Assembly (NCBI RefSeq): GCF_023487995.1
Contig: NZ_JAMFKN010000005.1
Location: 62,001 to 126,000 of the forward strand
Length of the DNA stretch: 64,000 bases
Origin: Thermohalobaculum sediminis
Lineage (GTDB): Bacteria > Pseudomonadota > Alphaproteobacteria > Rhodobacterales > Rhodobacteraceae
Direction: 5' to 3'
The notes under the pieces are model-generated. The model searched no databases. It saw only the letters and a list, made by a program, of their open reading frames with translations, and had not been told where the DNA came from. The position numbers and the translations under genes are program-made. Positions 56,757 to 60,047 of the stretch are shown one piece after another; position 1 is the stretch's first letter, and every line of letters begins with the position of its first letter.

Positions 56757-57602
56757 TCAGTGCGACATCAGGATGGGCAGGGCCGAGCCGCGGAGCATGT
56801 CGCGCGTCACGCCCCCGAAGATCTGCTCGCTGAGCTTGGAATGACCATAGCCGCCCATCACGATCATGCCGGCGCCGAAATCGCTCGCATGCGTCATGAT
56901 GCATTCGGCGACCGGCTTGCCCATCGCCGGCAGGCGGTCGACGCTCACCTCGATGCCGTGGCGCGCGATCTGGCGGGCGATGTCGGCGCCCGGCTCCTCG
57001 CCGTAGCGGCCGCTGCCGGCCTTGGGGTCGATCAGCGTGAGCGAGACCGCGTCGGCCGCCTTGAGGAAGGGCAGGGCGTCATGCACCGCGCGCGCCGCCG
57101 TGCGGCCGGCGTCCCAGGCGATCACGATGCGCTGGAAATCGGGGGCCGCGTCGTTGCCGCCCGGCATCACCAGCACCGGCCGGCCCGAGGCGAAGAGCGC
57201 GCCGTCGAGCACCTCGGAATGCAGCCGCTCGCTCTCGCTGTCGGGCAGGGGCTGGCCGACGATGGCGATGTCGCAGTAACGCGCGTTGAGCGCCGCAAGC
57301 TCGGAGATGCCGCCGATCACGCTGGTGTCGCCGCGGCTGTCGGCGCTGAGGCCGGCCGCGGTGATCTGCCCGGCCGCCTTCCCGGCGACGCCGCTGGCAA
57401 TACGGCGCATTTCCTGCACCTGCTCGGACCAGACCTCGATGGCTAGCTCGGCGCCCGCGACGTAGTTGAACGGCGGCTCCTCGAGAAGGGCCACGGCGTC
57501 GAGATGCGCGCCATGCCGTGACGCGAGCGCGATGGCACGTGCAAGGCGGTTGTCGGAGCCGGGCATGCCGTCGACGAAGACGGCGGCGGATCGGAAGGCC
57601 AT
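56757..57602 (-). CDS. Tandem-domain universal stress protein
   Basis: A 281-residue protein with two Usp domains (about 1-145 and 155-281). The second has the ATP-binding signature GGYGHSKLSEQIFGGVT near the end (G-2X-G-9X-G(S/T)), so it probably binds ATP. An FNR-type site (TTGAT-N4-GTCAA) lies 67 bases upstream, overlapping the end of the lysine-acetyltransferase gene. In mycobacteria a Usp is a known substrate of Pat acetyltransferase; the adjacency to a Pat-like gene is therefore notable. Confidence 0.92.
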   Translation of the reverse strand: MAFRSAAVFVDGMPGSDNRLARAIALASRHGAHLDAVALLEEPPFNYVAGAELAIEVWSEQVQEMRRIASGVAGKAAGQITAAGLSADSRGDTSVIGGISELAALNARYCDIAIVGQPLPDSESERLHSEVLDGALFASGRPVLVMPGGNDAAPDFQRIVIAWDAGRTAARAVHDALPFLKAADAVSLTLIDPKAGSGRYGEEPGADIARQIARHGIEVSVDRLPAMGKPVAECIMTHASDFGAGMIVMGGYGHSKLSEQIFGGVTRDMLRGSALPILMSH

Positions 57603-57668: not shown

Positions 57669-57682
57669 TTGATCCGTGTCAA
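57669..57682 (-). promoter_or_regulatory. FNR/FixK-type box upstream of the tandem Usp gene
   Basis: Plus-strand TTGATCCGTGTCAA, minus-strand TTGAC-ACGG-ATCAA: an almost perfect 14-bp FNR/FnrL palindrome (TTGAY-N4-RTCAA), centred about 73 bases before the Usp ATG. It overlaps the stop codon of the preceding acetyltransferase gene. An FNR-type regulator is encoded at 21843-22595. Confidence 0.65.
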
Positions 57683-59016
57683 TCCCGCACGATGCCCGCG
57701 CCGCCCAGATCCAGCGCGACATGTACCGTGCCCTCGGCCGGGCGGGGCTCGGCGCGGAAGCCGAGCTCGGCGCACATCCGCAGCATGGTGCGGTTCTCGG
57801 GCAGGACCTCGCCGTAAAGCTCGCCGATCCCGCTCGCCCGGGCATAGTCGATGAGCCGCGTCATCAGCGCCCAGCCGAGGCCCTTGCCCTTGAGGTCCGA
57901 GCGCACGAGCACCGAATACTCGGCCCGCGCGAGGTCGGGGTCGGCGGCGAGGCGCGACACGCCGAGCAGCCCGCCGGTGCCGGGATCGAGCGCCACGAAG
58001 GCCATGGCGCGGGCGTAGTCGATCTGCGTGAGCTGCGCCAGCATCGCCATGGACGGCCGGCCGATCGGGGCGAAGAAGCGAAGGCGCAGATCGTCCGGGT
58101 CCATCCGCTCGAACGCCTCGAGATAGAGCGGCGCATCCTCGGGCCGGACCGGCCGGCACAGCGCCGTGCTGCCGTCGGCAAGCGCAAGCTCGCCCTCCCA
58201 CTCGGCCGGGTAGGGGCGGATCGCGAGGCGCGGGTTCGGCGCCGCCTCGTCGAGCCGGCCGGGGTCGATGAGGATGCGCGCGTCGAGCGCCACCACGCCC
58301 GAGGCGTCGGCGATCAGCGGGTTGATCTCGAGAGTGGTGATCATCGGGAGGGCGCAGGCGACCTCGCCAAGCCGGATCAACACCTGCGCGATGGCCGCGC
58401 GGTCGGCGGCGGGGCGGCCGGGATATCCGTCGAGCAAGCGCGCGATGCGCGTCCGGCCGATCAGGTCCTGCGCCAGCAGGGCGTCGAGTGGCGGCAGGGC
58501 CAGCGCCTTGTCGTCAACCAGCTCGACCGCGAGGCCGCCCGCGCCGAACAGGATCGCGGGGCCGAACGCCGCGTCCTCGGCCAGTCCCGCGATCAGCTCG
58601 TGCGCGTGGCGCCGGCGCAGCATCTCCTGCACCGTGACGCCGGTGACGCGGGCGCCCGGTGCGCGCGCCGCGACCTCGGCCAACATGCGCGCCGCCGCCG
58701 CCCCGACAGACGCGGGGCTGTCGAGGTCGAGGATCACGCCGCCCGCGTCCGACTTGTGAGCGATGTCGTCGGAAAGCACCTTGAGCGCGAAGCGGGCGAC
58801 GCCGTCGGCGGCGAGCCGCGTCGCGGCCCGCTGCGCGCCGTCGGGTCCGTCGGCGGTCAAGGTGCGCACGCAGGGGATGCCCGCGGCGGCCAGCACCGCC
58901 TTGGCCTCGGCCTCGTTCAGACGGGCCGTGCCGCGCGCCGCCGCCGCGCGGATCGTCCGGCGCGCGGCCTCCCAGTCGGGGCGCGCATCGGGCGCAAGCG
59001 CGGGGGGTACGCGCAT
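57679..59016 (-). CDS. Pka/PatZ-like protein, C-terminal part: ATP-grasp and GNAT acetyltransferase
   Basis: A 445-residue protein equal to the C-terminal half of Pka/PatZ lysine acetyltransferases: ATP-grasp domain of the ADP-forming acyl-CoA synthetase type (about 20-250; HKSDAGGVILDL, ALKVLSDDIAHKSD), then a GNAT domain (about 285-440) with VRSDLKGKGLGWALM for acetyl-CoA and LTQIDYARAMAF before it. The start ATG overlaps the stop of the upstream half (TGATG). The two halves together would give a split version of one enzyme that acetylates metabolic proteins. It may be a remnant of a disrupted gene. Confidence 0.85.
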   Translation of the reverse strand: MRVPPALAPDARPDWEAARRTIRAAAARGTARLNEAEAKAVLAAAGIPCVRTLTADGPDGAQRAATRLAADGVARFALKVLSDDIAHKSDAGGVILDLDSPASVGAAAARMLAEVAARAPGARVTGVTVQEMLRRRHAHELIAGLAEDAAFGPAILFGAGGLAVELVDDKALALPPLDALLAQDLIGRTRIARLLDGYPGRPAADRAAIAQVLIRLGEVACALPMITTLEINPLIADASGVVALDARILIDPGRLDEAAPNPRLAIRPYPAEWEGELALADGSTALCRPVRPEDAPLYLEAFERMDPDDLRLRFFAPIGRPSMAMLAQLTQIDYARAMAFVALDPGTGGLLGVSRLAADPDLARAEYSVLVRSDLKGKGLGWALMTRLIDYARASGIGELYGEVLPENRTMLRMCAELGFRAEPRPAEGTVHVALDLGGAGIVRD

Positions 59017-60047
59017 CAGCCGGTCGAGCAGGCGGCGTCGGCCCCAAGGTCGATGGGGTTGGCCGCCGGCAGGTCGCGCCCGAGGGCCGCGAGAGTCCCG
59101 GGCGAGAGCCGGGCGAGGCGCTCGCCCATGTCGGCAACGGCATCCGCCGCCAGCACGCCCGCGCCGGTGCCATTCGCGATGACCGCGAGCCGGTCGCCAT
59201 CGGCCGCGACGGGGTGGTCGAGGATCTCGGCGGCGTCGAACATCTCCTCGAGATCGCGGATGCGCAGGATCCCCGCGCGATCGAGCGCGGCGCCGACCAC
59301 CGCGTCGGCCGTCGCGTCGCGGTGGCGTCCCGCCTTGAGCGCGATCACCGGCTTGATCCGCGCCGCGGCGCGCGCCGCTGACATGAAGCGGCGCGCATCA
59401 GTGATGCCCTCGAGATAAAGCAGGATGGCGCGCGCCTCGGCGTCGGCCGCGAGATGGTCGATGAGGTCGGCGAGGCAGAGATCCGCCGCCTCGCCCAGCG
59501 ACACGATATGGCTGAAGCCGACGCCGCGCCCGGCCGCCCAGCCGATCATCGCGCCGACGATCGCTCCCGACTGCGACACCAGCGCAAGCCGCCCCGGCAG
59601 CGCCGCGCGGTGCGCGAGCGAGGCGTTTAGGCCGATCGGCGGGCGCAGCAGCCCGACGCTGCCCGGCCCGAGCAGGCGCACACCGTGGCGCCGCGCGGCC
59701 GCGAGCAGGCGCGGGCGCAGCCCGTTCGCATCGGTGATGCCGCCCGAGACGACGATCGCGGTGCGCCCCCCCGCCGCGCCGAACTCGTCGATTGCCGCCG
59801 GCACCGTGCGCGCGGGGCTGACGACTACCGCGAGCGGGGGCATCGGGTCGAGCGCGCCGACCGAGGCGATCGCACGCCGGCCCAGCACGCTGCGATGGCG
59901 GGGATTGACCGGGTGGATGTCGCCGGCGAAGCCGCCCGAGAGGAGGTTCTCGAACACCGCCCGTCCCGGCGAGCCCGTGCGCGCGCTCGGGCCGATCACC
60001 GCCACGGACGACGGCGAGAAGGCTGCGTCGAGGTCGCTGGGCGTCAT
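59016..60047 (-). CDS. Pka/PatZ-like protein, N-terminal part: CoA-binding and ligase-like domains, truncated
   Basis: A 343-residue protein: CoA-binding domain (about 1-125; SVAVIGPSARTGSPGRAVFENLL, 12-34 in part), a first succinyl-CoA-ligase-like domain (about 135-270; LALVSQSGAIVGAMIGWA), and the start of a third domain cut off after NPIDLGADA. The catalytic-His segment (ASHTGALAGSD-like) is absent: KAGRHRDATAD is followed directly by AVVGAALDRAG. Compared with E. coli Pka about 100 residues are missing between the halves. Likely an internal deletion with a frameshift, or a genuine two-gene form. Confidence 0.8.
   Translation of the reverse strand: MTPSDLDAAFSPSSVAVIGPSARTGSPGRAVFENLLSGGFAGDIHPVNPRHRSVLGRRAIASVGALDPMPPLAVVVSPARTVPAAIDEFGAAGGRTAIVVSGGITDANGLRPRLLAAARRHGVRLLGPGSVGLLRPPIGLNASLAHRAALPGRLALVSQSGAIVGAMIGWAAGRGVGFSHIVSLGEAADLCLADLIDHLAADAEARAILLYLEGITDARRFMSAARAAARIKPVIALKAGRHRDATADAVVGAALDRAGILRIRDLEEMFDAAEILDHPVAADGDRLAVIANGTGAGVLAADAVADMGERLARLSPGTLAALGRDLPAANPIDLGADAACSTG

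Follow-up and report, generated by a model that had tools for sequence, protein, structure and literature searches.

Lineage-specific breakage as the most likely origin of a split Pka/PatZ-type lysine acetyltransferase gene in Thermohalobaculum sediminis

A single polypeptide of ~900 residues is typical of the type I GNAT acetyltransferases (Pka/PatZ), but in the window, the whole stretch of 64,000 nucleotides from Thermohalobaculum sediminis that was analysed, the Pka/PatZ-type locus consists of two overlapping open reading frames (ORFs) on the minus strand, which share one base at a TGATG (59014..59018, minus strand), the TGA closing the upstream ORF and the ATG opening the downstream one. 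Is this a gene broken by internal deletion plus frameshift, or a two-subunit acetyltransferase with a reduced regulatory half, the two options that the first-pass annotation had put forward? In type I enzymes, the synthetase-like half is reported to be catalytically inactive, to bind acetyl-CoA and to regulate the GNAT domain (PMC8556138). The role of this large half is only partly understood, and a natural case with a cut-up, faster-changing synthetase half and a conserved ATP-grasp–GNAT half would test GNAT function without the sensor.

All features of the locus given here lie on the minus strand. The upstream ORF (59016..60047, 343 aa) contains a CoA_binding_2 domain (domain 1, PF13380, residues 14-133, 59649..60008, Pfam E 4e-19), a Succ_CoA_lig domain with a shortened swinging loop (domain 2, PF13607, residues 151-276, 59220..59597, Pfam E 1e-41) and a stub of ~62 residues of domain 5. 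Its C-terminus is NPIDLGADAACSTG, of which the final five residues (ACSTG) are outside the ancestral frame. Pfam analysis found no match to PF19045 (domain 5) in this copy, and PF19045 was present in the intact proteins of two other genomes, G051 and G001, the latter from the same genus. The downstream ORF (57679..59016, 445 aa, N-terminus MRVPPA) encodes a complete ATP-grasp domain and a complete GNAT domain in the order found in type I enzymes, with ATP-grasp_5 (PF13549, residues 25-250, 58267..58944, Pfam E 9e-72), in which the HKS motif is retained (H87), ahead of a C-terminal GNAT core (PF00583, residues 331-420, 57757..58026, Pfam E 1e-10). The GNAT domain retains the acetyl-CoA motif SDLKGxGLG (here SDLKGKGLG) and Glu366, which aligned to E809 of PatZ. 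In the AlphaFold models, confidence was high across almost the whole of residues 1-277 in the upstream ORF, apart from lower values in the shortened loop (241-250), and the domain 5 stub (278-343) had mostly pLDDT 30-70; the downstream ORF was modelled confidently over nearly its entire length (mean pLDDT 90.6). Directly 3' of the downstream ORF is a Usp-domain gene (56757..57602), in the same order in G001, which is context and lies outside the enzyme.

The domain order of the two ORFs taken together, CoA-binding, flavodoxin-like, what is left of domain 5, ATP-grasp and GNAT, is the same as in Pka/PatZ/YfiQ and SePat, the type I bacterial lysine acetyltransferases. Both ORFs were collinear with a full-length PatZ-type protein acetyltransferase (PDB 9it0), which shares with them SDLKGxGLG and the Glu aligned to E809; E809, the residue reported for PatZ, is present in the 9it0 alignment. 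The upstream ORF aligned to residues 4-347 of 9it0 and the downstream ORF aligned from residue 450, with 102 residues of 9it0 (348-449) missing at the split. Unlike Pka/PatZ, this copy has two frames, has lost most of domain 5 and has a shortened loop in domain 2. The first-pass annotation had described two frames overlapping at TGATG and together resembling one Pka/PatZ protein, and the ORF calls, the Pfam domains and the alignment to 9it0 all agreed with that description.

The orthologue in G001 (locus L006) is one uninterrupted frame of 904 codons that retains the loop His and domain 5, and its downstream part is 72% identical to the C half studied here. Gene order was common to both genomes (aminotransferase-like gene, SDR, glycosyltransferase-like gene, Pka, Usp, antiporter). 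Alignment of the two copies indicated three losses in the present one. The first, an in-frame deletion of 12 codons (join 59309..59310, exact position alignment-dependent), removed the phosphohistidine loop, which reads HSGALAGSD in G001 and SHTGALAG in most relatives. The second is an in-frame shortening by ~4 codons at LPA/ANP (59061..59064), where G001 has LPPFCSHANP (LPPxxxxNP). The third, a deletion of 298 bp (join 59033..59035), falls between NPIDLGADA and RLLDRLMRVPPA and removed 99 residues with most of domain 5; because 298 is not a multiple of three, it shifted the frame by -1. With G001 taken to represent the ancestor, CCG is common to both ends of this deletion, as a simple deletion would leave; the breakpoints were read from G001 and not from a direct ancestor. 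Thus the upstream frame does end inside its third domain right after NPIDLGADA, and ~100 residues are missing there, as had been noticed from the letters.

The possibility that the interruption is an assembly or base-calling artefact, and that the gene of the strain is uninterrupted, was considered very improbable. Frameshifted Pka copies occur in two other genomes of the class, where sequence error is possible, but the present copy combines a separate in-frame loss of 12 codons with the frame change, the 298-bp loss has a clean join, and completeness of the assembly is given as 100% and contamination as 0.04. The idea of collapsed sequence at the junction did not hold up either, since no direct or tandem repeats that could collapse were found at that site. 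Programmed -1 frameshifting, by which the two frames would be fused into one shortened protein, is barely conceivable: a -1 shift anywhere from the deletion join to the stop would join the frames, but inspection of GACGCCGCCTGCTCGACCGGCTGA revealed no X-XXY-YYZ slippery heptamer, and the product would still be ~100 residues short.

Both the frequency of uninterrupted frames among relatives and the synteny with G001 favoured internal deletion plus frameshift over a designed split. Single frames were found at 106 of the 108 strongly matching loci, the remaining two being this copy and one cut by a contig end (L102), so that all fully readable relatives (106/106) were single-frame. Within the family, a match was found in 23 other genomes, each with an open frame of ~890 aa or longer. 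No relative in the family, the class or GTDB was found with the same split, which is, as judged from these sequences, private to this lineage. A conserved two-gene architecture, absent from every other family, class and GTDB relative, was rejected. Within the class, the frames of L191 (G463:C55) and L192 (G619:C140) were shifted at other sites and the large deletion was absent from both, which may point to independent decay or to faulty sequence in fragmented assemblies, and the frame of G472 appeared to be cut by a contig end. Within the genus, the gene was found in only two of five genomes (this one and G001), and the antiporter in all five. Because so few of the genus genomes carry it, the gene seems dispensable. 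The present genome contains no other full-length Pka.

A true two-subunit acetyltransferase, in which both ORF products are coexpressed and assembled in the manner of archaeal acetyl-CoA synthetase with its alpha and beta subunits, would account for several features of the locus. The archaeal ADP-forming enzyme (PDB 4xyl) is split at the same domain boundary, with the upstream ORF resembling its alpha subunit (4xyl_A) and the start of the downstream ORF resembling, and coinciding with the start of, its beta subunit (4xyl_B). The downstream ORF therefore corresponds to a full set of domains rather than an arbitrary piece. In addition, TGATG permits coupled translation, and domains 1-2 are still modelled confidently. 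Unlike 4xyl, however, the beta half is here fused to GNAT, and the locus has neither the phosphohistidine loop nor the greater part of domain 5. The split occurs in no relative, the N half is changing faster, and domain 5, which in related enzymes completes the CoA pocket of the other monomer (PMC11494057), is mostly gone, its stub being poorly predicted. These points render such an enzyme improbable, and a single-lineage breakage, rather than a new kind of two-part enzyme, is most likely.

The junction itself can be explained without selection for coupling. The position of the new start is Met in 67 of 102 relatives, and the preceding position is Leu in 84 of them; an ancestral CTG ATG (Leu-Met) yields TGA once the frame is shifted. 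The overlap thus came free with the frame change, and TGATG, judged on sequence, need not be an adaptation. No Shine-Dalgarno-like site was found before the downstream ATG (-1.1 kcal/mol, random mean -2.9), and such sequences were present at the starts of the upstream ORF (-5.8), Usp (-8.4) and the antiporter (-9.5). There was also no start codon farther upstream in the frame of the downstream ORF. With the split unshared, the TGATG derivable from an old Leu-Met pair, no ribosome-binding site and most of the subunit-interface domain lost, the earlier suggestion of a two-subunit enzyme with a reduced regulatory half could not be upheld as a conserved design.

In related synthetases, the phosphate is held by the His on the domain 2 loop, and the CoA pocket of each monomer needs domain 5 of its partner to be complete (PMC11494057). 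In this copy the swinging loop with the catalytic His is deleted, and domain 5 is a stub of mostly low pLDDT, so the ADP-forming synthetase reaction is not expected here. Since the loop His was retained in 100 of 102 relatives compared (column of G001 His252), its loss is specific to this lineage among those relatives. The catalytic-His segment is thus absent, as the first-pass annotation had stated, but no loss of acetyltransferase function follows from this by itself, because the segment of 9it0 aligned to the loop (RLLNTTAGMD) also has no His and type I and II enzymes are described as being without the catalytic His (review PMC8556138). The retention of the His in spite of that description suggests that some Pka-type proteins may keep synthetase chemistry.

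In order to compare constraint between the two halves, retention was scored at positions with at least 95% conservation in the relatives. All 23 such positions were kept in GNAT and 39 of 41 in ATP-grasp, compared with 13 of 21 in the domain 5 region (seven deleted). The intact appearance of the GNAT domain was therefore borne out by the PF00583 match, the full set of conserved positions and the Glu aligned to E809. G001 deviates at nine such conserved positions, above most relatives. This genome and G001 (L006) also have G306T in common, in which Thr replaces a Gly of the domain 5 NGGG motif (G306 of G001; window 59160-59175) that is 99% conserved. On the basis of this shared change, relaxation of the synthetase half may have begun in the common ancestor of the two, and, with the nine deviations of G001 also considered, some relaxation may predate the split.

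Pairwise dN/dS with G001 was 0.38 in both halves, which neither dates the breakage nor separates the halves, and lineage-specific branch lengths were therefore used, with relatives as outgroups; the outgroups are only ~50% identical, so that these lengths have wide intervals. Protein branch lengths of this genome versus G001 were 0.382 vs 0.227 in the N half, 0.174 vs 0.328 in the C half and 0.062 vs 0.392 in GNAT alone. The bootstrap ratio of this genome to G001 was 1.80 (1.28-2.99) for the N half and 0.52 (0.25-0.94) for the C half, and in none of 60 bootstraps was the N ratio below the C ratio. Counts of derived residues, this genome versus G001, showed the same trend, with 54 vs 37 in the N half and 37 vs 65 in the C half (Fisher p 0.0015). 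Relative to two control genes, the antiporter (ratio 0.43) and Acs (1.19), the C half was inside the control range, and the N half was clearly above the antiporter and overlapped the Acs interval. Constraint thus seems to have relaxed on the sensor half and persisted on the catalytic half, a pattern that does not date the deletion.

The explanation that we tentatively favour, at a little less than an even chance, is that the sensor half is decaying by deletion beside a complete ATP-grasp–GNAT polypeptide that remains under constraint and may be translated by reinitiation. As the comparison shows, the type I GNAT gene was a single frame in the ancestor of this genome and G001 and was broken in the present lineage by internal deletions: one, in frame, took the phosphohistidine loop of domain 2, and another, out of frame, took most of domain 5 and created a stop codon overlapping the Met codon of a pre-existing Leu-Met pair where two domains meet. 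The missing parts and the faster change suggest that the acyl-CoA-synthetase/acetyl-CoA-sensor half would be unable to work as in PatZ and is probably degenerating. The downstream ORF, with its conserved and catalytic GNAT residues, appears to be under constraint, which is undated relative to the split; some of its product is probably still synthesized through reinitiation at the stop/start overlap, and this protein may serve as a pared-down lysine acetyltransferase under looser regulation. Acs would be the natural candidate substrate, and the genome encodes an Acs with a PKTRSGK motif and a sirtuin.

What this copy cannot do is work as a normal Pka, given the reported regulatory role of the synthetase-like half and the report that E. 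coli PatZ requires its N-terminal region and that its GNAT domain has no activity in isolation (PMC8556138). The same report counts against the favoured explanation, although an ATP-grasp–GNAT polypeptide is a different construct, as do the downstream ATG without a Shine-Dalgarno sequence and the presence of the gene in only two of the five genus genomes. That the downstream ORF encodes a working minimal lysine acetyltransferase, in which ATP-grasp and GNAT operate on their own after deletion has cut them loose from the acetyl-CoA-sensing half, with stop/start reinitiation providing translation, is rather doubtful; if it did, acetylation would be uncoupled from its usual regulation or would answer to the ATP-grasp domain alone.

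The main rival, close behind the favoured explanation and a real possibility, is that the entire locus has recently become a pseudogene: the deletions abolished the enzyme, neither fragment is functional, and the GNAT half has had too little time to decay. The two or three deletions in one gene, the second start without a ribosome-binding site, the reported inactivity of isolated PatZ GNAT (PMC8556138) and the absence of the gene from three of the five genus genomes are all consistent with this, and the locus would then be an ordinary instance of gene loss, the gene being missing from most genomes of the genus. Nor do the open frames speak for function with any force, since only 0.12-0.24 stops are expected per 1% of neutral divergence at this GC content and the antisense frames are open as well. 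On the other hand, the C half has changed more slowly than in G001, GNAT very slowly and the N half faster, an asymmetry that would be unexpected had both halves been freed together long ago; if the large deletion is very recent, the constraint on the C half reflects the time before the split. Single-gene relatives with neutral decay in this copy, the outcome that had been named as fatal to the original reading, were thus found in their first part only: the relatives are single-frame, but neutral decay of the whole gene is not supported, as the ATP-grasp–GNAT half looks constrained.

Opposite the Pka frames, an antisense open frame of 580 aa was observed on the plus strand (window 57676-59418). 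Antisense frames are equally long in G001 and others, and long antisense open frames are expected at this GC content.
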